Shown here piece after piece: positions 12,100-49,734 of a DNA stretch of 49,975 nt (position 1 is the stretch's first letter; each line of letters opens with the position of its first letter). The notes below the pieces were generated by a model. It made no database searches. It was not told where the DNA came from and saw only the letters and a program-made list of their open reading frames with translations. The DNA comes from Methanobacteriota archaeon (GTDB lineage Archaea; Halobacteriota; Methanosarcinia; Methanosarcinales; Methanosarcinaceae), in NCBI GenBank assembly GCA_016841265.1, contig JAENZL010000021.1, forward strand, positions 10,193-60,167, in the 5' to 3' direction. Position numbers and translations under genes: made by a program.

Positions 12100-13488
12100 T
12101 TAAACCTCGTAGTTGAAATTCAACCACTCGCTTTTTTCACTTTCCTGCCCCGTCGAGTCAACAGCCCAAACGCGCCACCTGCCCTGATCGGTTTCGGGAA
12201 ATTCAAAGGTGTAAGTGGTTTCATTTATGTCAGAGACTATCCAGGGCTCGCCGGATTCCGAAAGCCACGTATCGGTTTCGTTGGAGTATGAATCGATTTC
12301 CACGGTATAACTCGCTGCATCCGGAACAGCCTCCCACTCAAGTGTTGTCAGGCGAGGGGAATGATTGAATACCGTTCCATCAGCAGGATAAAGTTGTTTT
12401 GGAATGGAGATCAACTGAGTTGAGTCCGATGAAGTGGAGTCCAAAGCTGTGGAATCGGATGAAGTGGGATCGGATGAAGTGGAATCGGATGAAGTGGAAT
12501 CGGATGAAGTGGAGTTTGAAGATATGGAGTCAGAAGCTGTGGAGTCTGAAGATGTGGAATCCGACAAAGTGGAGTCTGAGGATGAAAGTCCTGAGGAAGT
12601 GAGATCCGATGAAGAGTCAGAGGAAGTTGAGCCTGACGATAAGGAGCCTTCCACAAACACGACTTTGGTAGCTTCGACACTTCCTGCTTCGTTTGTGGCT
12701 ATCAGGGTGTAATCGGTGGTTTCATTGGGGAACACATGCTGGCTGCCATTTAAACCTACAGTTCCGATGTCGGGTTCTATGGTAACTTTTTCAGCACTGG
12801 AAACCTGCCAGACTAGATTGGAACTATTTCCTGTCCCGATAACGTCCGAATCGGCATTGAAAGAGTTGATGGAAGGCAACTTATTTTCAACCGTGATAAG
12901 ACAGGAAGCTATCTCTTCCTGGCCCCCACTCGAAGCTTTAAGCTGGTAAGTGGTGGATTCAGCAGGGGACACGGGAACTGTCCCTACGGGATTTACGCTT
13001 CCGATATCGGGTTCTATAGTAACGTTCTTAGCTCCGGAGACATCCCATTTTAAAACGGGACTATTTCCTTCCCCGACAAGGTCCGTTTCCGCATCAAAGG
13101 AATTGATAACCAGAGCTTCCTCTTCAACCGTAACCGTGCAAAAGTCTACTTTTTCCTCGTCATCATTCAAAGCTGTAAGCTTATAGGTAGTGGTTTCGGT
13201 AGGAGATACTTCAAATGTCCCCTCCGGGTTTTCAATTCCGATACCAGGCTCTATAGTTATATCCGTAGCCCCGGAAACCCCCCAGCTTAAAGTGGAATCT
13301 CCTCCAACTTCAATAAGTTCCGGGCTTGAATCAAAAGAATCGATTTCAATAGCTGCGGGGGAAATCAAAGTATTAAAAGCAATAATTATACCCAGAATAG
13401 AACCAGTCAATTTTATAATCTCAGGCAATGAATTCCAGGAATTCTTCAGTTTATTCCATAATTCTTTTTCACGGTCTATTCCACTCAT
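12100..13488 (-). CDS. membrane-anchored surface protein with Ig-like repeats, Ser-Asp linker and C-terminal beta domain
   Basis: A 462-residue protein. After a short charged N-terminus, residues about 22-45 form a single membrane segment (IIKLTGSILGIIIAFNTLI), so the rest is probably outside the cell. Three Ig-like repeats of about 80 residues follow, each with INSFDA/IDSFDS, LxWxVSGAxxVTIEPxIG and ETTTYxLxA. Then comes a linker of about 75 residues made of SSDST-type repeats, like the Ser-Asp stalks of bacterial adhesins, and a C-terminal domain with DGTVF, SYTVEID and GRWRVWAVDSTGQESEKSEW. That last domain recurs at the end of the protein at 46171-49734. A role in adhesion or cell contact is inferred. 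It is not in an operon. Confidence 0.83.
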   Translation of the reverse strand: MSGIDREKELWNKLKNSWNSLPEIIKLTGSILGIIIAFNTLISPAAIEIDSFDSSPELIEVGGDSTLSWGVSGATDITIEPGIGIENPEGTFEVSPTETTTYKLTALNDDEEKVDFCTVTVEEEALVINSFDAETDLVGEGNSPVLKWDVSGAKNVTIEPDIGSVNPVGTVPVSPAESTTYQLKASSGGQEEIASCLITVENKLPSINSFNADSDVIGTGNSSNLVWQVSSAEKVTIEPDIGTVGLNGSQHVFPNETTDYTLIATNEAGSVEATKVVFVEGSLSSGSTSSDSSSDLTSSGLSSSDSTLSDSTSSDSTASDSISSNSTSSDSTSSDSTSSDPTSSDSTALDSTSSDSTQLISIPKQLYPADGTVFNHSPRLTTLEWEAVPDAASYTVEIDSYSNETDTWLSESGEPWIVSDINETTYTFEFPETDQGRWRVWAVDSTGQESEKSEWLNFNYEV

Positions 13489-15978: not shown

Positions 15979-18900
15979 TTAATCCTCCTTTTCCCCATCC
16001 ATATCATGAAGGAATTGCAGGAAATTATTTCTTATTCTTGTGGTGTTCGGATGGTTTTGTCCCAATTTTTCCATAGCTATGCTGAAAGCCCGCTGATAAA
16101 GTGGTAGTGCTTTTTCGTACTCTCCCATTTGACGATAGAGTCCTGCTAGATTGTTTAGTGAGGCTGCAACACGTGGGTGTTGCAGCCCAAGTACCTTTTC
16201 CCTAATTTCAAGTGCCCGCTGATAAAGTGGTAGTGCTTTTTCGTACTCTTCTATCTGACGATAGAGTTCTGCGAGATTGTTTAGTGTTGTTGCAACATGT
16301 GGGTGTTGCGTCTCGAGCACATTTTCCCTAATTTCAAGTGCCCGCTGATAAAGTGGTAGTGCTTTTTCGTACTTTCCCATTTGATGATAGAGTAATGCGA
16401 GATTATTTAGTGTGGTGGCAACATCAGGGTGTTGTGACCCGAGCACCTTTTCACTAATTTCAAGTGCCCGCTGATAAAGTGGAAGTGCTTTTTCGTACTC
16501 TCCCATCTGACGATATAGTTCTGCGAGATTATTGAGAGTTTGAGCAACATCAGGGTGTTCCGATCCAAGCACTTCTTCTTTTATTTCATAAGATTGTTTA
16601 TAATATGAGATTGCTTTTTCGTACTCTCCCATATTATCATAGAGTACTGCGAGATTACTGAGGGTTGTTGCAACAGATGGGTGTTGCGGCCCGAGCATCT
16701 TTTCATATATTTCAAGTGCCCGCTGATAAAGTGGTAGTGCTTTTTCGTACTCTCCCATCTGACGATATAGTTCTGCGAGATTATTGAGAGTTTGAGCAAC
16801 ATCAGGGTGTTCAGGCCCAAGAACAGTTTCACGAGTCCTAAGGGCACGCTGATAAAGTGGTAGTGCTTTTTCGTACTCTCCCATCTGACGATAGAGTGCT
16901 GCGAGATTGTTGAGAGTTTGAGCAACATTAGGGTGATCAGGTCCAAGAACAGTTTCACTTATTTTAAGATCACGCTGATAAAGTGGAAGTGCTTTTTCGT
17001 ACTCTCCCATATCATAATAAAGTAATGCGAGATTGTTTAGCGTTGTTGCAACAGATGGGTGTTGAGGTCCCAGTACTTTGTCACGGATGTCAAGTGCCCG
17101 CTGACAAAGTGGTAGTGCTTTTTCGTACTCTCCCATATTATCATAGAGTACTGCAAGGTTGTTGAGAGTTTGAGCAACATCAGGGTGATCAAGTCCAAGA
17201 GCAGTTTCCTGAGCTTTAAGTGCCCGCTGATAAAGTGGTAGTGCTTTTTCGTACTCTCCCATATTATCATAGAGTACTGCGAGATTACTGAGGGTTGTTG
17301 CAACATGTGGGTGTTGCGGACCCAGTACATATTCACTTATATTCAGATCACGCTGATAAAGTGGTAGTGCTTTTTTGTACATTCCCATCTGATTATAGAG
17401 TTCGGCAAGATTGTTGAGGGCCTCTGCAACAGATGGGTGTTGGGGTCCCAGCACCTTTTCACGAATGTCAAGTGAATGGTGACAAAGTGGTAGTGCTTTT
17501 TCGTACTCCCCCATTCTTTCATAGAGTCCTGCAAGATTGATTAGCGTGTTGGCAACATGTGGGTGTTGTGTACCCAGCACCTTTTCACGAATGTCAAGTG
17601 CCCGCTGATGAAGTGGTAGTGCTTTTTCGTACTCTCCCATCTGATGATAGAGTACTGCGAGATTGTTTAGCGAGTTGGCAACATGTGGGTGTTCCGGTTC
17701 CAGATTAGCTTCCAGTATTTGTTGCGTTTCTTCATAAATTGGGATAATTAATTGCCAGAATGCGGCTCTGTAAAAAGGATCTGAGGTGGAAGTAAACCAG
17801 TTGAATAGTTCTTCGGCTTCGAGGGCTTCTTTTGCGTGGTAAAAGGCTTCGGCCAGGGCGCTTTCGTGTTCAGGAGTGATTGTTTTGATGTCGATGTCTT
17901 TTATCTGGTTACTATAATAAGTACACATAAAGCTGTGGGCTTCTTTTTTCAAATCTTGAGCTTGGTAAACCTGCAGGCTCTTTCTCATGAGTGAATGCAA
18001 TTGGAGTTTCCCTTCGGTTTCCTGGACAAAGGAGAATCTGTTCAATTCCGAAAAAGCTGTGAGGGGATAACCAGTATTGAAATTATTGATTAATGCTGTG
18101 AAGATTTCTTTATTCCAGAAACGGGGAGTTGAAAGAACTTTCAGGGTTTCTTTTTCCGGAACTCCCAGGTATTTCATAAATCTGTCAAAGATTTCACTTC
18201 GAGTTTTGGCAAAATCATCAGGTTTAGGAGAACTGGTCTTTGAGATTTCGGTGTATGTATCAACAGCAAGTTCAAGGTAATAAGGAACACCTTCACTACC
18301 CTCAATTATTACTTTTTGAATCTTCTCTTCTTTAATTCCACAGCGATTAAGAAAGTCAAGGGCATCTTTTTCAGGGAGTTTTTCGAGTTTGTATTGCTTA
18401 AGGTAATTATTCCAGTCTTTGTCGGCTTCTTCCCAGCGGAGTTCCTCTCTTCCGCAGATTACCCAAAGGGATGATTTTGGCAGGTTTCCAATAAGTTGTC
18501 TTATCCATTCATCTCGGGAATTAAAACTTCCCTGCCCTCTTTCCTTTTCCCAGAGAGCTTCATAGCTGTCTATGAAGATAACTGCCGATTTTGAAGTATT
18601 TTGCAAGTAGTCTGAGAGGTCTTGTGCAAAGAATACAGGAAGCATTTTTTCAATATCCAGAGCTTCCATATCTGGGAGTCTTGCGATTTCCTTTTCTCTC
18701 TTTAAAGACCATTCCTTAAAACGATCAGGTGCTCTTTCCACAACACTTTTTATGCTGCTGTAATTTATTGAGAAAAGACCGCCAAATGAATCAAGAAGAT
18801 CCGTTACAATGCTGTCTTCGGAGTATCCATCTCTTGAAAGGGGAATCTGAGGGTTGACTTTTCGCCAGTATGTTGCATGTGCAATATCGAATAAGTGGAA

Positions 18901-19230
18901 TTTGACACCACATTTTTGATCCAATTCGTTTTTCAAGATTCCAAGAAATTTATCCATTTGTCTATGGGACTCTATGCTGAAATCAACCGTAGCCCAGATA
19001 ACACCTGTATTCTGGTATTTTTCGTTATATTCATCAAGCTTTTTTGGCAGTTCTTTTCGCAAACTGGTCTTGCCGATTCCGCCTATCCCATAGTAAACCA
19101 GAACGCTGTAATCTTCTTTGCCAATATTTTGGAAGGCGGTTTCAAATGCTTCGATGAATTCTTCTCTGTCAACAAATGGTCGATCTTCTTTTTCAGATAC
19201 AGGTGTAGGACAAACTGCCAATTTTTCCAC
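15979..19230 (-). CDS. STAND-type NTPase with 13 kinesin-light-chain-like TPRs
   Basis: A 1083-residue protein. Residues about 18-330 are an NTPase of the STAND/NB-ARC kind: Walker A GIGGIGKT (48-55, Lys54), Walker B AVIFIDSYEAL (Asp221), a following VICGREEL with Arg261, and a GVPYYLELAVD GxP region near 325. A winged-helix-like part extends to about 420. Residues 514-1060 are 13 complete 42-residue TPRs of the NNLAxLYxxMGEYEKALPLYQRAL pattern plus a half repeat. In characterised STAND proteins such repeats sense a ligand and nucleotide binding drives oligomerisation; signalling or antiviral defence is possible but not shown. The start is GTG at 19230, or TTG at 19221, which has GGTGG five bases upstream. 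There is no separate effector domain. Confidence 0.88.
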   Translation of the reverse strand: MEKLAVCPTPVSEKEDRPFVDREEFIEAFETAFQNIGKEDYSVLVYYGIGGIGKTSLRKELPKKLDEYNEKYQNTGVIWATVDFSIESHRQMDKFLGILKNELDQKCGVKFHLFDIAHATYWRKVNPQIPLSRDGYSEDSIVTDLLDSFGGLFSINYSSIKSVVERAPDRFKEWSLKREKEIARLPDMEALDIEKMLPVFFAQDLSDYLQNTSKSAVIFIDSYEALWEKERGQGSFNSRDEWIRQLIGNLPKSSLWVICGREELRWEEADKDWNNYLKQYKLEKLPEKDALDFLNRCGIKEEKIQKVIIEGSEGVPYYLELAVDTYTEISKTSSPKPDDFAKTRSEIFDRFMKYLGVPEKETLKVLSTPRFWNKEIFTALINNFNTGYPLTAFSELNRFSFVQETEGKLQLHSLMRKSLQVYQAQDLKKEAHSFMCTYYSNQIKDIDIKTITPEHESALAEAFYHAKEALEAEELFNWFTSTSDPFYRAAFWQLIIPIYEETQQILEANLEPEHPHVANSLNNLAVLYHQMGEYEKALPLHQRALDIREKVLGTQHPHVANTLINLAGLYERMGEYEKALPLCHHSLDIREKVLGPQHPSVAEALNNLAELYNQMGMYKKALPLYQRDLNISEYVLGPQHPHVATTLSNLAVLYDNMGEYEKALPLYQRALKAQETALGLDHPDVAQTLNNLAVLYDNMGEYEKALPLCQRALDIRDKVLGPQHPSVATTLNNLALLYYDMGEYEKALPLYQRDLKISETVLGPDHPNVAQTLNNLAALYRQMGEYEKALPLYQRALRTRETVLGPEHPDVAQTLNNLAELYRQMGEYEKALPLYQRALEIYEKMLGPQHPSVATTLSNLAVLYDNMGEYEKAISYYKQSYEIKEEVLGSEHPDVAQTLNNLAELYRQMGEYEKALPLYQRALEISEKVLGSQHPDVATTLNNLALLYHQMGKYEKALPLYQRALEIRENVLETQHPHVATTLNNLAELYRQIEEYEKALPLYQRALEIREKVLGLQHPRVAASLNNLAGLYRQMGEYEKALPLYQRAFSIAMEKLGQNHPNTTRIRNNFLQFLHDMDGEKED
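16053..17691 (-). repeat. 126-bp tandem repeats encoding the TPR array
   Basis: Thirteen in-frame 126-base units inside the STAND gene. Stretches such as gtggtagtgctttttcgtac recur nearly unchanged, so DNA identity is far above what protein constraint requires. Recent amplification or gene conversion is the likely cause. Confidence 0.9.
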
Positions 19231-21501: not shown

Positions 21502-22953
21502 TTATCTATCGTTTCTCTCCATCTTCTCATACAGCGCCAGCAGATTATTCCTCGTGATCTTGAAATAAGGGTGGTCGATTCCTAACTCCTTTTCAATGAT
21601 GCCGAGCGCCCTTTCGTACATCTCGCTTGCGGTTTCGTATTCGTCCATGCTTTCGTGCAGGCCTGCGAGGTTGTTGAGGGTTGTGCCGACGTCCATGTGT
21701 TCGGAGCCGAGGGATTTTTCGGTGATTTTGAGGGCGCGGGTGTAGAGGGGGAGGGCTTTTTTGTGTTCGCCCATCTGGCGGTAGAGTTCGGCGAGGTTGT
21801 TCAGGGTCTTGGCAACTTCAGGGTGCTCTTCGCCAAGGAGCTTTTCCCGGATGGCGAGGGTCTTTTCGTAGAGTTCCAGGGCTTCTTTGCACCTGCGCTT
21901 CCGGACATAGACGCCTGCCAGGTTGTTCAGGGTGTTGGCATAGCCCATGTGCTCCATTTTTCCGAGCTTTTCAAAGATTTCCAGGGCACGGGTGTAGAGG
22001 GCGAGGGCTTTTTCAGGGCTGCCGGTATTGTAATAGAGCAGGCCCAGGTTGTTCAGGGTCTGGGCTACCTGAGGGTGATCGGGGCTGAGGGACGTTTCCT
22101 GGAGTTTGAGGGCTCTTCCGTAGATTTCCTCTGCCTCGTCCATCCGGCCCATCTCCTCCGAAAGCAAAACGCCCAGGTTGTTCAGGGTACCTGCAGTGTA
22201 GGCCTGGAACTTTACGTTTTCCGGAGCGGCTTCCCTGAGTATTTCGAGGTGCTCGAGAGCCCGGCGGTAAAGCTCTTCGGCTTTTTCAGGCTCTTCCGTG
22301 CCCCTGTAGAAAAACGCCATCCTGTTCAGGGTCCTGACGGTTTCCAGGTTCCCGGGGTATTCGGGATTTTCGGCGTGCTCGAGAGAGAAGACTTTTTCAT
22401 GAATTTCGAGGGCTCGTTCGTAGAGGGGGAGGGCTTCGGCTTTTTTGTCCATGAAAAAGTAGAGGACTGCAAGGTCACAGAGGGTGTTTCCGGTCTCAAG
22501 GCTATCGGGGCCGGTTTTCGTTTCCCGGATGGCGAGAGCTCGGGTGTAGAGGGGGAGAGCTTCTTCATACTTTCCCAGATACCTGTAGATCCCCGCAAGG
22601 CCGTTCAGGGCTGCTGCTGTTGCCGGGTGCTCGGGCCCGAGTTTCTCTTCGGCTATATCCAGGACCTGTTCATACATCGGGGAGAGCAATCTCCAGGAAG
22701 CTGAGCGGTAGAAGGGCTCAGCATACCAGGTGAACCAATTGACCAGCTCTTCGGGCCCTAGCTCTTCCTTCGCACGCCGGAAAGCTCTTTTCAGGACGGT
22801 TTCGTCTTCAGGGGTGATCAGTTCGGGGTCCAGGTCTTTTAATAGACTGCTGTACTCTTCGAGGCTCTTCAGATCTTCTTTCGCTTCTATTCCCCTGACT
22901 TTCACTCTCACTTTTTTCATCCCAATCTCCGTGCTCTCTGTTGAATCATTCAT
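21502..22953 (-). CDS. TPR protein related to the C-terminal half of the STAND protein
   Basis: A 483-residue protein of eight to ten kinesin-light-chain-like TPRs (for example TLNNLAELYRQMGEHKKALPLY). Residues 30-85 (ITPEDETVLKRAFRRAKEEL, then ELVNWFTWYAEPFYRSASWRLLSPMYEQ) match the segment just before the TPRs of the STAND protein at 15979-19230 (ITPEHESALAEAFYHAKEAL, ELFNWFTSTSDPFYRAAFWQLIIPIYEE). The NTPase domain is absent and is replaced by a short N-terminus. Its repeats are more diverged and less regular in DNA than those of the STAND gene. AGGAGGGG lies seven bases before the ATG at 22953. It is probably cytosolic and protein-binding; a regulatory or decoy relation to the STAND protein is speculative. 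Confidence 0.85.
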   Translation of the reverse strand: MNDSTESTEIGMKKVRVKVRGIEAKEDLKSLEEYSSLLKDLDPELITPEDETVLKRAFRRAKEELGPEELVNWFTWYAEPFYRSASWRLLSPMYEQVLDIAEEKLGPEHPATAAALNGLAGIYRYLGKYEEALPLYTRALAIRETKTGPDSLETGNTLCDLAVLYFFMDKKAEALPLYERALEIHEKVFSLEHAENPEYPGNLETVRTLNRMAFFYRGTEEPEKAEELYRRALEHLEILREAAPENVKFQAYTAGTLNNLGVLLSEEMGRMDEAEEIYGRALKLQETSLSPDHPQVAQTLNNLGLLYYNTGSPEKALALYTRALEIFEKLGKMEHMGYANTLNNLAGVYVRKRRCKEALELYEKTLAIREKLLGEEHPEVAKTLNNLAELYRQMGEHKKALPLYTRALKITEKSLGSEHMDVGTTLNNLAGLHESMDEYETASEMYERALGIIEKELGIDHPYFKITRNNLLALYEKMERNDR

Positions 22954-23444
22954 CAATTAGCCCCTCCTGAACAAAAAATCGAATATTGAAACTTTTAGTG
23001 TAAATATTTAGGAGCAATCCTATATTACAGTATCACGTTCAAAATTTTTCTAATAAATCTAAACCCAGGTCAACCGCTGGCTTCCAGATTCCGTGCCCAG
23101 CCACGCTCGCCTCAGGCGAGCGGCTTTTGCTGTTGTAAAATGATGAAAAAGATACAGTAGAATAAGTGATTTTAAAAGATGTTGGCCAAGAAGCAGAAAG
23201 TGAGTAAATTACTCTATGAAGTTTTTGGTTTGAGACGTAATCACATCTTCCGGAAAAAATAGATTAAAAATTGCAGCTGTGAAGAAAGGGGAAAATAATT
23301 TCAGGTACGAAGTTCGGATTTCTGGCGTGAGAATATGCTGGGTCCTTAAGGTTAATTTTTTTCTTACCCCTTCTTCTTTCTTTTTTAACTTTGGGAAAGG
23401 CCGCAAAGCTGCGCTTTGCGTGTGCTGCTGCTGATGTTGGGAAG
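22954..23444. other. 491-base gap with two perfect hairpins
   Basis: CGCTCGCC-TCA-GGCGAGCG lies at 23104-23122 and CGCAAAGC-TGC-GCTTTGCG at 23402-23420. The second is just past the sugar kinase stop codon and could mark its 3' end, although no clear T-tract follows. A possible 65-codon minus-strand ORF (23209-23406) has no ribosome site and overlaps the second hairpin, so I do not call it. Confidence 0.6.
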
Positions 23445-37295: not shown

Positions 37296-37952
37296 TTACA
37301 GGGCTTTTTGTCGCTTTACGAACCTGATCCCCATCTCAAAGGCTTTCTCACAGTCTATCGGGAACACTTCCTTTCGCCTTTTTGCCTTTTCCACAGGGTC
37401 AATCCTGTCGGCAACATACTTTGAATAATCATCGAACTGGTAGGTATCAGTGCTGCACAGGGATTCGGAATTTCCGAAGATAATTTTCGCCGTATATTCA
37501 TTCACTTCAATAGTTTTCCTGAGCCCTATCATATCTAAGTATTCTTCCGTTACCCCCATCGTATAGATAAAACCAACAGGGATATTTTTCGGATAGAGCG
37601 TGGGCAACTCATTGGAGTAAACGAGGTATGGAAATATATAGCGTTCCATAAATGACCTCATCTCCCCCGTAGAGTTCCCGAGATAAATGGGCGATCCAAG
37701 GATCACTGCATCAGCATCTTTCAACCTCTCAAGCACAGGTGTCAGCTCGTCCTGCATTGCACATTTCCCATAGCTTTTTCCATCTTTTAATTTGCAGGCA
37801 AAACAACTTGTACAGCCTTTAAAATTAAGGTCATAGAGATGGATTATTTCGGTTTCCGCACCCTCCGAAACTGCACCTTCAAGAGCTTTTTCCAGCAGGG
37901 TTGCTGTATTCCATTTATTTCTGGGGCTTCCGTTTATGGCAATCACTTTCAT
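37296..37952 (-). CDS. flavodoxin-like NAD(P)H/FMN oxidoreductase, copy 1
   Basis: A 218-residue protein of the NADPH-dependent FMN reductase / iron-sulfur flavoprotein superfamily. It begins MKVIAINGSPRNKWNTATLLEKAL, the FMN phosphate-binding loop, followed by CTSCFACKLKDGKSYGKC and AVILGSPIYLGNSTGEMRSFMERY. The cysteine pattern C-x2-C-x2-C-x10-C resembles the compact cluster motif of Methanosarcina Isf, but its last spacing is longer, so cluster binding is not certain. An in-frame upstream start (37994) adds 14 non-homologous residues and was not used. It would act as a cytosolic electron carrier or reductase. It has a second copy at 40827-41483 with 14 differences in 218 residues. Confidence 0.86.
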   Translation of the reverse strand: MKVIAINGSPRNKWNTATLLEKALEGAVSEGAETEIIHLYDLNFKGCTSCFACKLKDGKSYGKCAMQDELTPVLERLKDADAVILGSPIYLGNSTGEMRSFMERYIFPYLVYSNELPTLYPKNIPVGFIYTMGVTEEYLDMIGLRKTIEVNEYTAKIIFGNSESLCSTDTYQFDDYSKYVADRIDPVEKAKRRKEVFPIDCEKAFEMGIRFVKRQKAL

Positions 37953-38422
37953 GATTTTTATCTCCATTTCGATTCCTTCTGAAATTATAATCATGAACCT
38001 AAGTTTCTATGCGGTCGTTAAGGTTATAGGTTACTACGAGATCCGCTAGGGAGCTTACAGGGGGCCGTTTTCGTAGTCCAACCCCGTGCTCACACCCGGT
38101 TGCGAAGCAACCGGCTTGCCCTCAAATTAAATGAATAAGACAAAGAAATTAAAAAAGAAGCTACTTTTTTGTTTTCGAATACACATCGTCTAAAAGGCGT
38201 GTCCTCGAAGTGCCTTGATTTTTTTCTTTTGGAATGTTCATTTTTGCGATCATTCCATTCTGGCAGTTGCTCTGGTCAGGCCTCGCTGACGCTCGGAACA
38301 AGAACGACGGAAGATATCATTCCGGATGCTTCGGGAAAGTTCGATCAAGCAGAAGGAAATAGCCCCGGTATTGTGCCCCTTAAAATCGACAAATCATTAC
38401 TTCTTTTTAAAATGAGGTTTTT

Positions 38423-40826: not shown

Positions 40827-41483
40827 TTACAGGGCTTTTTGTCGCTTTACGAACCTGGCCCCCATCTCAAAGGCTTTCTCGCAGTCTATCGGGAACACTT
40901 CTTTCCGTCTTTTTGCTTTTTCCTCGGGATCAGACATGTCAGCAACATACTTTGAATAATCATCGAACTGGTAGGTATCGGTACTGCACAGGGATTCGGA
41001 ATCTCCGAAGATTCTCTTCGTCATATATTCATTCACTTCAATAGTTTTCCTGAGCCCGAACATATCCATGTATTCTTCCGTTACCCCCATCGTGTAGATA
41101 AAACCAACAGGGATATTTTTCGGATAGAGCGTGGGCAACTCATTGGAGTAAACGAGGTATGGAAATATATAGCGTTCCATAAATGACCTCATCTCCCCCG
41201 TAGAGTTCCCGAGATATATGGGCGATCCAAGGATCACTGCATCAGCATATTTCAACCTCTCCAGCACGGGTGTCAGCTCGTCCTGCATTGCGCATTTCCC
41301 ATAGCTTTTTCCATCTTTTAATTTGCAGGCAAAACAACTTGTGCAGCCTTTAAAATTAAGGTCATAGAGGTGGATAATTTCTGTTTCCGCGCCCTCCGAA
41401 GCCGCACCTTCAAGGGCTTTTTCCAGCAGGGTTGCCGTATTCCATTTCTTTCTGGGGCTTCCGTTTATGGCCATTACTTTCAT
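40827..41483 (-). CDS. flavodoxin-like NAD(P)H/FMN oxidoreductase, copy 2
   Basis: A 218-residue close duplicate of the protein at 37296-37952, differing at 14 positions. The FMN loop (AINGSPRKKWNTATL), the four cysteines and the GSPIYLGNSTGEMRSF region are all unchanged. Most differences cluster in residues about 130-150 and 175-185 (for example IGLRKT to FGLRKT, RIDPVE to MSDPEE), so the copies may differ in partner or substrate contacts. The reading frame is intact, which argues that both are in use. Start, strand and flanks match copy 1. Confidence 0.86.
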   Translation of the reverse strand: MKVMAINGSPRKKWNTATLLEKALEGAASEGAETEIIHLYDLNFKGCTSCFACKLKDGKSYGKCAMQDELTPVLERLKYADAVILGSPIYLGNSTGEMRSFMERYIFPYLVYSNELPTLYPKNIPVGFIYTMGVTEEYMDMFGLRKTIEVNEYMTKRIFGDSESLCSTDTYQFDDYSKYVADMSDPEEKAKRRKEVFPIDCEKAFEMGARFVKRQKAL

Positions 41484-43710: not shown

Positions 43711-43909
43711 GACTCAGTTCCAAAATCCAGTGATTGGTGTAAACTAAAAAATCACTGGATTTTGAAATTTGTTGTGACCCATTGAACACGCCCTCTTGAT
43801 TGAAGTCGTTAGATGCCGAATATTGAGTTAGATTGAAGAACGAATTCTTCCTGCAAATTCATTGTTTCAATCAAAAAATGTAAAAATCACTAGATTTTGG
43901 ACCAGAGTC
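43711..43909. mobile_element. MITE-like element with 25-bp inverted ends and 8-bp target duplication
   Basis: The left end (43711-43735, starting GACTCAGTTCC) and the right end (43885-43909, ending GGACCAGAGTC) are inverted repeats matching at about 21 of 25 positions. TACTTTTG flanks both sides directly (43703-43710 and 43910-43917), as expected for a target duplication. At 199 bases there is no room for a transposase, so it would need one in trans. An internal third arm (aatcactggattttg, 43750-43764) can pair with the left end. The family of the parent element is not identified. Confidence 0.75.
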
Positions 43910-43958
43910 TACTTTTGAAATATAAAATAACATCAATGTAAAAAATTATTCGTAATGT

Positions 43959-44290
43959 ATCCTAGATTCCCGGCGGTTCATAACGAGCCCAGCAATACTT
44001 GATTGTATATCCCTTGAAATTTGAAAAGATTATCGTATATTGGAGCGTTGATTACTTAAAAATTTAAAATGATATTTTGTATCGGAGCGTTAATTTATCC
44101 TCGTTTTGTGTTATTTTGTACATAACGATTAGAGAACTTGCGTGGCGACAAACTCGATGTCATTGAATGCTTCGAACAGCCAGGAAAATCGCTTTGAGTA
44201 GGCGAGATGCTGGAAAAACAAAAACAGCTGTACACCTTGATCTGAGGGTGAACCCGGCTACCTCGTTATGAATGGGCGGGAATCCAGGAT
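43959..44290. mobile_element. second inverted-repeat element, about 330 bp
   Basis: The left arm (43959-43987, from ATCCTAGATTCCC to CATAACGAG) and the right arm (44262-44290) pair at 25 of 29 positions. The interior has no ORF. It contains two similar stretches, ttggagcgttgatta and tcggagcgttaattt. I cannot identify a target duplication, so it could be a decayed element or an insertion-sequence remnant. It lies 50 bases from the first element and just upstream of the AT-rich unit. Confidence 0.6.
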
Positions 44291-44370
44291 GTATAGATTA
44301 CCTGTCGAATGTGGACTCTAAATTTTACTTAAAATACGTGAATATATTTTTTAGAAATATAGTTTCAAAA

Positions 44371-44382
44371 CGTATATATAAT
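44371..44382 (+). promoter_or_regulatory. TATA box of the trefoil-protease/phosphoesterase unit
   Basis: cgtatatataat, with AAAA upstream, is a good archaeal TATA box and would start transcription near 44405, leaving a leader of about 58 bases. It lies outside the inverted-repeat elements. Confidence 0.5.
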
Positions 44383-44462
44383 TAAATTTTTAAATACTAT
44401 ATTATATTTAGAAATGATTGCAGGTAAAAATTAATCAGGTTGATTTAGTGGGAGTTGTAAAG

Positions 44463-46070
44463 ATGGGGTCAAAGATATTCTATAACAGTCCTTTCTCTCT
44501 ACAGATTGTAGGCCATGATTTTGTCAAATATGGAGAGCGATCGCATGGAATTAACCTAGTATGGACAAATATTCCTCTAGATCAATGGATACTTAAAAAT
44601 AAAAATGAATCAGAGGTTAAAAATTCTGAGATTAAATCTGGGGATATAGTTGCTCTATACAATATGAAACAGTCTGATTATGTTGTATATGGAGTACGTA
44701 GTAAAGGAATTAATCTTCGATGGCTTCGAGATCAATCATCTATTCCTCGAGATGATCCATATAACTGGACTATATTTATTGATCAAAATACCGGTCGAAT
44801 TAAGCTTAAAAATCGTTCGAATAATAAATTCCTTGTTTATTCTGATCGCTCTTGGGGTATTAACCTGGGCTGGAATAAATATTCTGGTTACAACAGTTCT
44901 GTTAAGCAAAAAAATGAACAGCTAGATGCTACTCTCGTGCTCGAAAAGATTTTTTGCCGAAGAACCGAAGACTCTGAAACTGATCAGATTTACATAAAAG
45001 TAAACGGGGACAAGGTCTGGGGACCTTATGATATGAAGGCTGGCAATTTATATAATGTCTATCAAAACATTCCTGTAAAAATTGGGGATAAAGTAAAAAT
45101 CGAATTGTTTGATCATGATTCTCTTGATCCAGATGATAATCTTGGAAAAGAAGTAATAAATGTTAATTTTGGAGAAGATAAAGTTGAATTTACTGGAGAT
45201 GATGCATTTTATTTACTTTTTTATTCTATTGAAAACAAAAGTGTACTGGGAAAAAAAGAAGAAGCACTTGCCTATATGGACAAGTATAAATCCAGCATAA
45301 GAACGAGTCCATGGAAAATCGATGCCACTAAAGTGTTTGAAAGATTAGCAGATCTTATCAAAAATCCCACAAAAGTTAACCAAGATGGGCTCAATCTTTG
45401 TGGTCCTGCGGCTTTCCTCCGGATTTGGCTGGAACGTGATCCTCTTGCTGTAGCCAAGTTTGCCTGTAAGCTGTACGATACGGGTAAAAGTAATATTAAT
45501 GACTACAAAGTTGAACCTGATGACGATTCGCTCTTGGGCGAAGACTACGAAGCTATTAAACAGGCTAACGGGGGAACATTAGCACCTGAAGCCGATTGGA
45601 TGATTCTGGGATCTATTAGAGATTCAGAGAACTTATATTTCGACTATGAAGGCAAGCCAGAAGAAGATGTATCTGCCGCCACTACGCCTGGCGAGGTGAA
45701 AGAATTTCTTGAGGCAACGAAACTCTATTCTACGGTGAAAGATGAAGCTAATTTCTATCTTGTTAAAGGAATTGATCATGCACTTAGTCTCAGATTAACT
45801 CCCTCAAAAGACATTATTCTGCTCATTAATTCTCACATCTTGATCGAGATGAAGGTGAAAGAAGGTAAAAAGAAATCAGATGATTTTATTCTTAGTGCTT
45901 TCCCCAATCACTTCGTTGTACTCGCTTCAGATATTGAGGAATATTTAGATGGGAGTTTGAAATTATCATTGTGGACTTGGGGAAGTGAGATGAAAGAAGC
46001 CACAATTGAAAAATCCGTTTTTGAGAAAAACTATTACGGTGCCATTATCGCTGAAGGTGCAAGGTTATAA
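44463..46070 (+). CDS. beta-trefoil / C2-like / cysteine peptidase-like multidomain protein
   Basis: A 535-residue protein without a signal peptide. Residues about 1-145 hold three copies of a (F/Y)xxYxxRxxGINLxW motif (FVKYGERSHGINLVW, YVVYGVRSKGINLRW, FLVYSDRSWGINLGW), the three-fold pattern of a beta-trefoil lectin-like fold. Residues about 155-260 resemble a C2 domain, with DHDSLDPDDNLG as a possible calcium loop. The last 270 residues contain NLCGPAAFLRIWL (Cys313) and FPNHFVVLAS (His483), followed by LSLWTWGSE, the Cys/His arrangement of papain- or C39-like peptidases. A binding module delivering a protease is the simplest reading. GGGAG is seven bases before the ATG; a TTG at 44418 was not used. 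The gene is AT-rich. Confidence 0.78.
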   Translation: MGSKIFYNSPFSLQIVGHDFVKYGERSHGINLVWTNIPLDQWILKNKNESEVKNSEIKSGDIVALYNMKQSDYVVYGVRSKGINLRWLRDQSSIPRDDPYNWTIFIDQNTGRIKLKNRSNNKFLVYSDRSWGINLGWNKYSGYNSSVKQKNEQLDATLVLEKIFCRRTEDSETDQIYIKVNGDKVWGPYDMKAGNLYNVYQNIPVKIGDKVKIELFDHDSLDPDDNLGKEVINVNFGEDKVEFTGDDAFYLLFYSIENKSVLGKKEEALAYMDKYKSSIRTSPWKIDATKVFERLADLIKNPTKVNQDGLNLCGPAAFLRIWLERDPLAVAKFACKLYDTGKSNINDYKVEPDDDSLLGEDYEAIKQANGGTLAPEADWMILGSIRDSENLYFDYEGKPEEDVSAATTPGEVKEFLEATKLYSTVKDEANFYLVKGIDHALSLRLTPSKDIILLINSHILIEMKVKEGKKKSDDFILSAFPNHFVVLASDIEEYLDGSLKLSLWTWGSEMKEATIEKSVFEKNYYGAIIAEGARL

Positions 46071-46170
46071 CTTTAAGAGAAATAGAAAAGTAGGACATTT
46101 ATAGAAAATATCAAGTATAAATGTATTATCGATATAAGTTAATTCTATTGTTTTAGTGGGAGTTGTAAAG

Positions 46171-49100
46171 ATGGGGTCAAGAATATTGTCCAATACGCCT
46201 ATCTCATTGCAGATTGAAGGTCATGGTTTTGTCAAATATGGGGAACGATCGCATGGAATCAACTTAGTATGGTCAGAAAAACCAATTTATCAGTGGAAAC
46301 TTATAAAGAAAAAAGACACCAGTCACGTTGAACCCGAGATTAAATCTGGAGATACAGTTGCTCTGTATAATATGAAGCAGTCTGATTATGTTGTATATGC
46401 AGAACGTAGTACGGGAATTAATCTCCGATGGCTTCGAGACCAATCATCTATTCCTCAAGATGATCCATATAACTGGACTATATTTATTGATCAAAATACC
46501 GGTCGAATTAAGCTTAAAAATCGGTCGAATAATAAATTCCTTGTTTATTCTGATCGCTCTTGGGGCATTAGCCTAGGCTGGAATGAAAATTCTGATTACA
46601 ACGTTTCTGTTAAACAGGCGGATACTACCTTAATAGCCAAAACAATTTTGCCTAATACGCCTATCTCATTGCAGATTGTAGACCATGGTTTTGTCAAATA
46701 TGGGGACCGGGCTAATGGAATCGATCTAGTATGGTCAGAAAAACCAATTTATCAGTGGAAACTTATAAGGAAAAAAGACACCAGTCACGTTGAACCCGAG
46801 ATTAAATCTGGAGATAAGGTTGCTCTATATAATTTGAAGGAGCATGATTATGTTGTACATGCAAAACGTGGTAGGGGAATTAATCTTCGATGGCTTCGAG
46901 ATCAGTCATCTATTCCTCAGAATGACCCATATAACTGGACTATATTTATTGATCAAAATACCGGTAGAATTAAGCTGAAAAATCGTTCGAATAATAAATT
47001 CCTTGTTTATTCTGATCGCTCTTCGGTATTGGATAGTGGTATTAACCTGGGCTGGAATGAAAATTCTGATTACAATCTTTCTGTTAAACAGGCAGATGCT
47101 ACCCTAATAGTCAAAACAATTGTTTGTCATGTAACTGAAGATTGGTGTGAGGCGGATGAAATATACATAAAAATTAATGGTGATACTGTCTGGGGACCAC
47201 ATGATTTGAATACCGGTGAAACTTATCATCTGTACAAGCAGATTCCAGTAAAGATTGGTGAAAAAGTTGAAATTAGTGTTAACGATGAAGATGTGAATTT
47301 TCTTTGGCTTTTTGATAAAGATGATAATCTTGGAAAACAAATAAAGTATGTAACTATTGGTGAAGGACTTGCTACATTTTCTAAAGATGAGGCATATTAT
47401 TCATTTTATTATTCTGTTGAATACAAAAATGCACCTGCAAAGTTAAGTATTGTTGAACCGAGTTTAGGACATCCTCATATTTTAAAACCAAGCGATCTCA
47501 ATTCATTTTGGATTACCATTGCAACAAAAAGTGTTTTAGGCGATGTGCAAAAAGCTTTCAATGAGATTCAAGATAAAATTTTTATTGAGGATATTGAGAC
47601 AAGAAGAAAATGGCCATGTATAGTTGATTTGCTATCACTATTTACAGCAAGAGATAATTACTTTAAATCAAAAGAAATGTATAATGAAAAAAGGAATGAA
47701 GTGTTTAATAAAAACCCAAGTCAGTTCCCATTCAGTAATACAGAATTTAAAGCTTGTTGTGGAATAATTGCTGACTTTAAAGTAAAACTTAAACTTCAAC
47801 CTAAACACATAAATGAATTAGTTGAGTCTGAAGGATTACAAAGAATGTTCAATCTGCATTTAGGAAATTATACAGCTTTTCATTGTGTCTATATTTCTCA
47901 AAAATTACCTGATGAGCACGATATAAAATTTATTCATGCCACTGACAGTCATATTACAGATTTCTACGATACGATTGGTGATGATATTTTAGATCATCCT
48001 CAACTTACAGATGTGGAAAAACATTTGATGCTAAGTAATTTTCGTAATCCAAACGATCATTTGCGTGCTATAATAAGCTATGCCAACTCTAACAATATAG
48101 ATTTTCTAGTTATTACTGGAGATTTAATAGACTGGCAATCAGATATGTTATTTGATATAGCTCCTCCAAATCAATCAAATTTTAGAAAGTTCCACTCAAT
48201 AATCACAGGATCTGACAATCTTGGGGAACCACTTCGGTGCCCATTATTTGTCGTCCCTGGTAATCATGATTTTTTATGTTTTGCACCACCATTGAGATAT
48301 ACTGTAGACTCTCCTGTAGGCGATGAGGATTTGGAAGACAATGAAAAAGCTACAGGACTAAATACCAAACTAGGATCTAAAAAATATATTGATTTACTTG
48401 AAAAACATAAGCCTTTAAAAGAGAAGTACATGAGGAGGACCCATGGCCTATATGTTGCTTATAGATTCTTACAACCCACTTTTCCACAATTTTCTCAATA
48501 TTTAACTGAATTGTCATATGAACCTAGTTTTTCAGTTGACATTGGTAAACACCACTTAGTTTTACTAAATACGGGACAAGATGTTCTACTTCCAGGATTG
48601 AATATTAAAGGTATTTTTGATTATATAGTTGAAACTGATGCTGTTGAACACGGTACACATAACGCAGGATTTAGCCGTGAGGATATACTACTGGTTGATG
48701 AAGCTAAAAAGAATTCAAAAAAAGGTGGATTAATTTGTGTTTTCACTCATGCGCCGCTAATCAATCCTGAAAAACATCAAAAAATACCAAAAGAAATTAC
48801 TGAGTTTTATCACGAATCATTTGATCAAATACCTAATAAAGTTACTTTATGGCTAATGAAACTTGCCAATTGGTATCCTGCCGGAATGGTGGGTGGACTT
48901 CCAGCAGCGGTAATTGCGGAATCAGCAGGTTTCTCTGCATCGTTGAAATCAGCAGGTTTCCCTCAAGCTAGTACCAGGTACTTCTTTAGAGGAAAAAAAC
49001 GCAGTGGTTTGCTTGACTTTGCCTGTGCAGATAAAAATTATAGAACCTTTTTGTTTAGTTTACTCAAAAAGGAATCTGGTCAGTCAGTTGCTGCTTTGTT

Positions 49101-49734
49101 TTCTGGACATACTCATAAAATTCATGAATTCAGAATTTCGCAAAATCAAACCCACGATGAATTCTGCATATTTACGGAAAATTATTCTGGAAGTGAGAGT
49201 TGGACTGAACTAAGTGAAGGATATCCCGAATATCAGTTGCCTGCTAAGAACAACTTGGTTGGATGGTTGAATGAAAAAGCTCCTTTGTTGTTAACTTCTG
49301 GTGCCCTTAAAGGGCAAAAATACCCACAATTTAGGGAAGTGAACATTGAAGGTGATGAATATGGATCGGGAATTTCCTCAATGGAAATGAAGCAAATTTC
49401 ACGTTATTCACACTATATCCCAGCTCCACAACAACTAAAACCAAGCGATGGCACATTTTTCTATGATAATCAACGAAAAATCAAGTTTAGTTGGAAACAT
49501 GACTTAAATGCTAGCAAATATAAAATTGAAATTCAATATAATGATGAGACTGGATGGCATCCTTGCATCTTTACAAACACCACTGTTGAAACCATTGTTG
49601 AAAATTCATTTACATGTGATTTTATCAAATCACGAGTTGGAAGATGGCGTGTCTGGGTAGTAGATAAATATGGACAGGAAGGCATAAAATCAGGTTGGTC
49701 AAGATTTGTAATCCAGAGACTCATTTCACTTTAA
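46171..49734 (+). CDS. double beta-trefoil / C2-like / metallophosphoesterase multidomain protein
   Basis: A 1187-residue protein sharing its N-terminal modules with the upstream gene. Residues about 1-140 and 155-300 are two trefoil modules (FVKYGERSHGINLVW and FVKYGDRANGIDLVW open them); a C2-like part with DEDVNFLWLFDKDDNLG follows. From about 585 there is a full calcineurin-type metallophosphoesterase: ATDSHITD (Asp592), VITGDLIDW (Asp651), VPGNHDFL (Asn698), FTHAP (His860) and SGHTH (His980), all metal or catalytic residues kept. A large insertion separates the last motifs. Residues about 1090-1187 form a beta domain with GRWRVWVVDKYGQE, shared with the protein at 12100-13488. The ATG has the same GGGAG leader as the upstream gene, 100 bases away. 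No signal peptide. Confidence 0.82.
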   Translation: MGSRILSNTPISLQIEGHGFVKYGERSHGINLVWSEKPIYQWKLIKKKDTSHVEPEIKSGDTVALYNMKQSDYVVYAERSTGINLRWLRDQSSIPQDDPYNWTIFIDQNTGRIKLKNRSNNKFLVYSDRSWGISLGWNENSDYNVSVKQADTTLIAKTILPNTPISLQIVDHGFVKYGDRANGIDLVWSEKPIYQWKLIRKKDTSHVEPEIKSGDKVALYNLKEHDYVVHAKRGRGINLRWLRDQSSIPQNDPYNWTIFIDQNTGRIKLKNRSNNKFLVYSDRSSVLDSGINLGWNENSDYNLSVKQADATLIVKTIVCHVTEDWCEADEIYIKINGDTVWGPHDLNTGETYHLYKQIPVKIGEKVEISVNDEDVNFLWLFDKDDNLGKQIKYVTIGEGLATFSKDEAYYSFYYSVEYKNAPAKLSIVEPSLGHPHILKPSDLNSFWITIATKSVLGDVQKAFNEIQDKIFIEDIETRRKWPCIVDLLSLFTARDNYFKSKEMYNEKRNEVFNKNPSQFPFSNTEFKACCGIIADFKVKLKLQPKHINELVESEGLQRMFNLHLGNYTAFHCVYISQKLPDEHDIKFIHATDSHITDFYDTIGDDILDHPQLTDVEKHLMLSNFRNPNDHLRAIISYANSNNIDFLVITGDLIDWQSDMLFDIAPPNQSNFRKFHSIITGSDNLGEPLRCPLFVVPGNHDFLCFAPPLRYTVDSPVGDEDLEDNEKATGLNTKLGSKKYIDLLEKHKPLKEKYMRRTHGLYVAYRFLQPTFPQFSQYLTELSYEPSFSVDIGKHHLVLLNTGQDVLLPGLNIKGIFDYIVETDAVEHGTHNAGFSREDILLVDEAKKNSKKGGLICVFTHAPLINPEKHQKIPKEITEFYHESFDQIPNKVTLWLMKLANWYPAGMVGGLPAAVIAESAGFSASLKSAGFPQASTRYFFRGKKRSGLLDFACADKNYRTFLFSLLKKESGQSVAALFSGHTHKIHEFRISQNQTHDEFCIFTENYSGSESWTELSEGYPEYQLPAKNNLVGWLNEKAPLLLTSGALKGQKYPQFREVNIEGDEYGSGISSMEMKQISRYSHYIPAPQQLKPSDGTFFYDNQRKIKFSWKHDLNASKYKIEIQYNDETGWHPCIFTNTTVETIVENSFTCDFIKSRVGRWRVWVVDKYGQEGIKSGWSRFVIQRLISL

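Follow-up and report, generated by a model that had tools for sequence, protein, structure and literature searches.

Modular proteins with trefoil-like and C2-like front ends in a methanogen-type archaeon as candidate antagonistic effectors

Contractile injection systems of archaea deliver toxins and kill neighbouring cells (PMC11566945), and they are present in methanogens and in anaerobic methanotrophic (ANME) archaea (PMC9012536, PMC11566945). Archaeal peptidoglycan hydrolases devoid of a signal peptide tend to co-occur with a sheath gene (P = 0.059), and the use of archaeal injection systems on bacteria is stated as untested (PMC12352652). Archaeal weapons against bacteria are barely known. 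Here, two adjacent genes on the + strand (gene 1, 44463..46070; gene 2, 46171..49734) are described, which fill the last 5.5 kb of a 49,975-nucleotide stretch of DNA, hereafter the window, which forms the right-hand part (10193-60167) of the 60,167-nucleotide contig C16 in an archaeal draft genome of 67 contigs carrying the methanogenesis marker mcrA. Both proteins join a front end of three-fold modules and a C2-like domain to an enzyme, a predicted cysteine hydrolase in gene 1 and a metallophosphoesterase (MPE) in gene 2. On balance and with moderate confidence, the pair is regarded as modular effectors with which a methanogen-type archaeon antagonises other cells, most likely bacteria, and was probably acquired horizontally. 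The hydrolase family is one that bacteria use as injected toxins, which suggests that the archaeal pair may likewise serve as weapons.

The closest known proteins are effectors of the type VI secretion system (T6SS), exemplified by those of Citrobacter (L036), Flavobacterium (L044) and Pseudomonas (L052), which share the same ~250-aa domain with conserved Gln, Cys-Gly, Asp-Trp, Arg, His and Trp-Gly. In contrast to them, the archaeal protein bears the trefoil-C2 front instead of TssD, PAAR or VgrG, has no adjacent lipoprotein and is ~20-30% identical. The papain-like protease toxins Cpe1/Cpi1, EvpQ and TsaP (PMC12136450; PDB 9l5u) resemble the gene 1 family in a probable papain-like fold, a presumed toxin role and T6SS association, whereas a PDB profile search detected no sequence relation, and the domain of the gene 1 family is larger with other conserved motifs. 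Furthermore, Cpe1 acts on cytosolic GyrB/ParE, while the relatives of gene 1 have lipoprotein partners. Tae amidases and the weaponised archaeal peptidoglycan hydrolases (PMC12352652) are likewise effectors or secreted hydrolases directed against bacterial walls, and some of them lack a signal peptide and come from genomes that encode a sheath; gene 1 differs in that it has no Pfam wall-hydrolase match, and its wall activity is presumed. The toxins of Halogeometricum, delivered to neighbours by an archaeal contractile system (PMC11566945), would be an archaeal parallel by their description; they have downstream immunity genes, of which none was seen beside the pair. Modular toxins with exchangeable enzymes are a known kind. 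What seems to be new, as far as the databases covered here go, is the architecture, its occurrence in a methanogen, and the family of the effector domain itself.

Predicted hydrolase of gene 1 and its bacterial relatives

The 535-aa protein of gene 1 ends in a domain of aa 265-535 (45255..46067, +), for which a sequence-only reading of this DNA, made before any database search, had claimed a peptidase-like fold with Cys313 and His483. Modelled alone, the domain reached a predicted local distance difference test (pLDDT) of 90.8 and a predicted template modelling score (pTM) of 0.91. In Foldseek, the PDB structure ranked first was 9l5u, a toxin/immunity pair of the papain-like type; C39 peptidases and cathepsins came next, and almost every one of the best 50 matches was a papain-like or C39 peptidase. 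The matches to papain-like proteases are weak (E 0.03-0.5; template modelling score, TM, 0.2-0.5), and E-values of 0.03 and up point to a divergent papain-like fold outside the known families. Papain has a Gln six residues ahead of its Cys and a His later in the chain; Gln307 precedes the predicted nucleophile Cys313 (codon 45399..45401, +) by the same six residues, and His483 (codon 45909..45911, +) is the predicted catalytic histidine, judged by its conservation in homologues. Cys313 and His483 are both invariant or nearly so among the domain homologues, and the nearly invariant residues comprise Q307, C313, G314, A316, G341, P352, D378, W379, R386, H483 and W506. The structural matches support the claimed peptidase-like fold and conservation supports the residue pair, and the back end of gene 1 is probably a divergent papain-like domain, predicted to be a Cys/His hydrolase.

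Sequence databases offered no name for it. For residues 265-535 there was no match in Pfam, NCBIfam, PADLOC or the PDB, and none that reached significance in PHROGs, and Pfam gave no NlpC/P60, CHAP, M23 or other wall-hydrolase match for the domain. A PDB profile search with the whole protein returned chance-level matches only, and a viral structure library yielded weak matches, some of them peptidases or endolysins.

The family was reached with an alignment of the domain, which was required since a scan of genome contigs with the whole protein P0002 found no match; the alignment retrieved 79 genome loci and 8 viral-contig loci. Relatives found by tblastn reside on enterobacterial plasmids and in Salmonella, several adjoining PAAR genes, and one lies inside a TssD protein of Tenacibaculum. 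Among 76 effectors, Pfam detected fusions to TssD/Hcp (7), PAAR (7) and VgrG (1), and the upstream open reading frames (ORFs; n = 72) encode PAAR, VgrG and Hcp in 17, 8 and 8 cases, respectively. A lipobox was present in the ORF behind the effector at 55 of the 76 testable loci, compared with 13 of 231 control ORFs (5.6%) from the same loci, and several lipobox-negative downstream ORFs were still lipoprotein-like by eye. The plasmid relatives follow this layout, with a PAAR gene before and a small, mostly lipobox-bearing protein after the effector. Such an arrangement reads as the signature of type VI effector-immunity pairs with a probable periplasmic target, and the guess of a role in cell-cell conflict, which the sequence-only reading had offered along with virus defence, gained support through these homologues. 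Virus defence was rejected, as PADLOC matched neither protein.

Neither Pfam nor NCBIfam holds a model that matches the effector family, and no paper naming it was found with the terms used, which is no proof of absence. In the searches made here, a family with TssD, PAAR and VgrG fusions and lipoprotein partners looks undescribed. The ~250-aa domain (loci L021-L107) spans Pseudomonadota, Bacteroidota and Campylobacterota, and an effector family spread over several bacterial phyla is of interest independently of the archaeal pair.

A tree of 82 hydrolase domains places gene 1 together with those of Streptomyces coffeae and a Chloroflexota bin (support 100/100) within an otherwise bacterial family, with the archaeal clade on a long branch of 1.74 changes per column. 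The domain occurs in one of the 186 genomes of the order. Given this patchiness and the otherwise bacterial tree, horizontal gain would be the simplest reading despite the long branch. The Streptomyces relative (L021) is 53% identical in the peptidase only, which there forms the C-terminus of an unrelated 1561-aa protein.

Shared front end and the second enzyme

The front ends of both proteins are built from modules written as (F/Y)xxYxxRxxGINLxW in the sequence-only reading, arranged as one three-fold unit in the first protein and two in the second. The motif [FY][VL]x[YH]xxRx(1-6)GI[NSD]LxW indeed occurs three times in the gene 1 protein (aa 20, 73, 123) and six times in that of gene 2 (aa 20, 73, 123, 174, 227, 277), and the modules inside one unit are 30-51% identical over aligned residues. 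Five of the six within-unit module pairs beat all 500 shuffles and the sixth was equalled by 2 of 500, which confirmed the module arrangement. The units cover 44490..44921 (+, aa 10-153, three modules) in gene 1 and 46192..46620 (+, aa 8-150) and 46651..47094 (+, aa 161-308) in gene 2. Three homologous modules of ~40-50 residues, as found in each unit, are the pattern of a beta-trefoil, and the fold is taken as putative. The AlphaFold model of this part had a pLDDT mostly <50, Pfam gave no match for it, and PDB profile searches with the unit and with the single module gave chance-level matches only.

The C2-like domain that follows (gene 1, 44934..45236, +, aa ~158-258; gene 2, 47119..47430, +, aa ~317-420, 52% identical to that of gene 1) fared better. 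Its AlphaFold model (pLDDT about 60-80) matched the perforin C2, the Munc13 C2B and other C2 domains in Foldseek with a probability of 1.00 and a TM by target of 0.51-0.61, so that the domain qualifies as a C2 fold. Of the proposed trefoil/C2 structure, the C2 part was thus upheld and the trefoil fold was not confirmed, and the C2-like assignment appears better supported than the trefoil assignment. As the nearest folds are perforin and other eukaryotic Ca-binding C2 domains, and the targets open to contractile injection systems at large include eukaryotes (PMC9012536), the pair could be cargo against co-habiting protists, with the C2 domain on eukaryotic membranes and the trefoils on their glycans. 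This seems improbable, for the hydrolase relatives are antibacterial, judged by their lipoprotein partners, and a C2 fold match is uninformative on the target.

Relatives of the C2-like domain without the trefoil part exist in other archaea and in Streptomyces. Two proteins from other archaea of the phylum (L134:4496-5272, +; L135:47-991, -) apparently hold two copies of the domain each and have no signal peptide. The trefoil-C2 front and the gene pair were absent from every other genome searched: 393 genomes of the phylum gave weak matches and proteins bearing the C2-like domain, and nothing further; 199 Streptomyces genomes gave the C2-like domain alone in 4, the hydrolase in 1 and no trefoil-C2 front; 400 Chloroflexota genomes gave only the already known hydrolase relative; and 396 genomes of the phylum of the Streptomyces relative gave no more than the gene 2 C-terminal module, which was present in 2 of them. 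The trefoil alignment and protein P0001 found no match in IMG/VR, nor did the trefoil or the MPE among plasmids.

The gene 2 protein (1187 aa from ATG 46171) proceeds with an MPE unit of aa 425-1080 (47443..49410, +). It passes Pfam PF00149 over the curated cut-off (1e-8) and retains all five metal motifs (DSH592, GDLID650, GNHD697, HAP860 and GHTH979), in agreement with the complete metallophosphoesterase read from the sequence. In genome G075, of the same family and another genus, a PF00149 protein (L133:3885-6845, -), with no obvious signal peptide, has the same MPE unit including its N-terminal extension at 29-30% identity. The alignment pairs the first residue of L133 with residue 425 of gene 2, just where the C2 domain has ended, which defines a clean module border. 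In contrast to gene 2, L133 has no trefoil-C2 front, and its C-terminal part consists by Pfam of trefoils of the AbfB (8e-36), Fascin and FRG1 types, indicating that the MPE is an independent module that has been combined with more than one kind of lectin-like part; hhalign found no match between those trefoils and the front-end unit. Behind the MPE, gene 2 ends in a fibronectin-like module (49417..49719, +, aa ~1083-1183), which recurs more than 30 kb away in the window ORF 12100-13488 (-) with 38% identity (E 1.4e-13). That ORF appears to be membrane-anchored and has Ig-like (immunoglobulin-like) repeats resembling cyanophage virion structural proteins and a Ser/Thr/Asp-rich linker.

AbfB and Fascin trefoils are typical carbohydrate binders, and together with the recurrence of the fibronectin-like end in an apparently membrane-anchored Ig-domain protein they would fit enzymes of the producer's own surface or extracellular matrix, in which lectin and C2 domains hold peptidase and phosphoesterase on the envelope or on biofilm polysaccharide for processing or for scavenging phosphate and peptides. 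We consider this unlikely, since no signal peptide or membrane anchor was seen in the two proteins or in L133, the relatives of the gene 1 domain are overwhelmingly injected effectors, and the domain is so patchily distributed in the order.

The clean borders given by the MPE relative and the Streptomyces relative substantiate the notion of a common front end with exchangeable enzymes, and the locus illustrates domain exchange behind a duplicated front end. How the copies arose is less simple than proposed. The sequence-only reading had the front of gene 1 duplicated and its enzyme swapped to give gene 2, and the duplication is supported by DNA identity of up to 93%, whereas gene 1 could not be resolved as the donor. 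Module by module, the front-end copies are 76-93% identical in DNA: module 2 of copy 2a is nearest to gene 1 (93%) and its module 1 to copy 2b (92%), and the C2 parts of the two genes are 71% identical in DNA and 52% in protein. This mosaic led to the rejection of a simple copy of gene 1 and speaks for recombination or gene conversion after duplication of the front end, with either gene as the possible donor.

Ahead of both ATGs stands the same 19-nt leader TTTAGTGGGAGTTGTAAAG, as claimed (44444..44462, +, for gene 1; 46152..46170, +, for gene 2). Its GGAG, ~8 nt 5' of the ATG, fits a ribosome-binding site, and the leader core agtgggagttgtaaag has no copy in the window beyond these two. ATG 44463 is the best start of gene 1; in-frame GTG/TTG codons upstream of both ATGs are possible alternatives, and the leader could be read as codons instead if those were the true starts. 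Both frames are open over their full extent, and no signal peptide was seen in either protein, as had been stated.

Host injection system and proposed mode of action

The same genome holds a contractile injection system cluster on another contig, C31 (8000-40000; loci L019, L020), with genes for a sheath, two tube proteins, LysM/CIS-tube, spike base, gp25 wedge, AAA ATPase and a Pvc16-like protein, as well as a large protein with an eCIS-core (DUF4157) domain. By its gene content the system looks complete. A more specific and less likely scenario can be tentatively drawn, in which the pair is a two-effector weapon in the methanogen's contractile injection system against bacteria: the hydrolase domain would have been captured from type VI effectors, the duplicated trefoil-C2 aiming part would allow exchange of the enzyme, and an immunity gene would be needless because the archaeon lacks what the enzymes attack in bacteria. 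The locus thereby provides candidate cargo for archaeal injection systems directed at bacteria.

For the broader and favoured reading of antagonistic effectors, the following mode of action is conceivable. The proteins would leave the producer via the C31 injection system, by lysis or by another route, and the trefoil-C2 front would bind glycans and/or membranes of the target envelope. The gene 1 hydrolase may then break an envelope bond of the peptide, amide or ester type. Because the homologous effectors have lipoprotein immunity partners, it would act outside the target cytoplasm, on a peptidoglycan peptide bond, an envelope protein or a lipid. The gene 2 MPE would hydrolyse a phosphoester, so that a substrate in the envelope or the cytosol loses a phosphoryl group. 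Should gene 1 attack murein, the archaeon could do without an immunity gene, which would agree with none having been seen. Cys313, His483 and the MPE ligands are defined residues for mutation, and the locus connects a protein of an archaeon with a family of toxins that bacteria inject and for which Pfam and NCBIfam have no profile.

Several observations weigh against the effector reading. The pair is not located near the injection genes (C16 versus C31), and Pfam found no DUF4157/eCIS-core domain in either protein. No immunity-like or lipoprotein gene lies between or behind the two genes, where the contig stops 241 bp past gene 2; the 3' contig end leaves room for one. The closest relatives, from Streptomyces and Chloroflexota, have no T6SS fusion; no ORF with a lipobox follows the Chloroflexota relative, none was recognised by eye behind the Streptomyces relative in its ORF list, and no sheath gene passed the cut-off in either genome. 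Finally, the structural matches to papain-like proteases are weak, and the long archaeal branch may signify a shifted function. TssD, PAAR and VgrG are likewise missing from both proteins by Pfam, and none is apparent among the window ORFs.

Mobile elements and neighbouring genes

The pair region has a G+C content of 33-37%, compared with 42-57% in most of the window. It begins 170 bp behind an element resembling a miniature inverted-repeat transposable element (MITE; 43955..44293, 339 bp, 29-nt inverted ends), a second copy of which lies at C34:38129-38468 with 96% identity. A separate 47-57 nt repeat starts at 43860 and has further copies on C19, C24 and C34. The low G+C, the MITE-like element just upstream and the contig end directly behind would be compatible with functionless remnants of mobile-element cargo. 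Such decay is highly improbable, however, for two long open frames that keep all predicted catalytic residues and whose front-end copies appear to be maintained by recombination.

STAND-like (signal transduction ATPase with numerous domains) and tetratricopeptide repeat (TPR) proteins occur in conflict systems. One P-loop protein of this kind, with ~13 TPR repeats, is encoded in the window at 15979-19230 (-), not far from another TPR protein at 21502-22956 (-); the profile matches were confined to generic TPR models. The presence of this ATPase, together with the lack of an export signal in the pair, could hint at intracellular stress or abortive-infection proteins acting in the producer's own cytosol. 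This is very unlikely, as PADLOC gave no match for the pair, the STAND-like gene is 25 kb away with no positional link, and lectin/C2 fronts would be hard to explain in the cytosol. An Rfam scan of the window gave no match. Elsewhere in the window, two near-identical flavodoxin/NADPH-FMN-reductase-like genes (37296-37994, -; 40827-41483, -) stand ~3 kb apart and represent a recent duplication.

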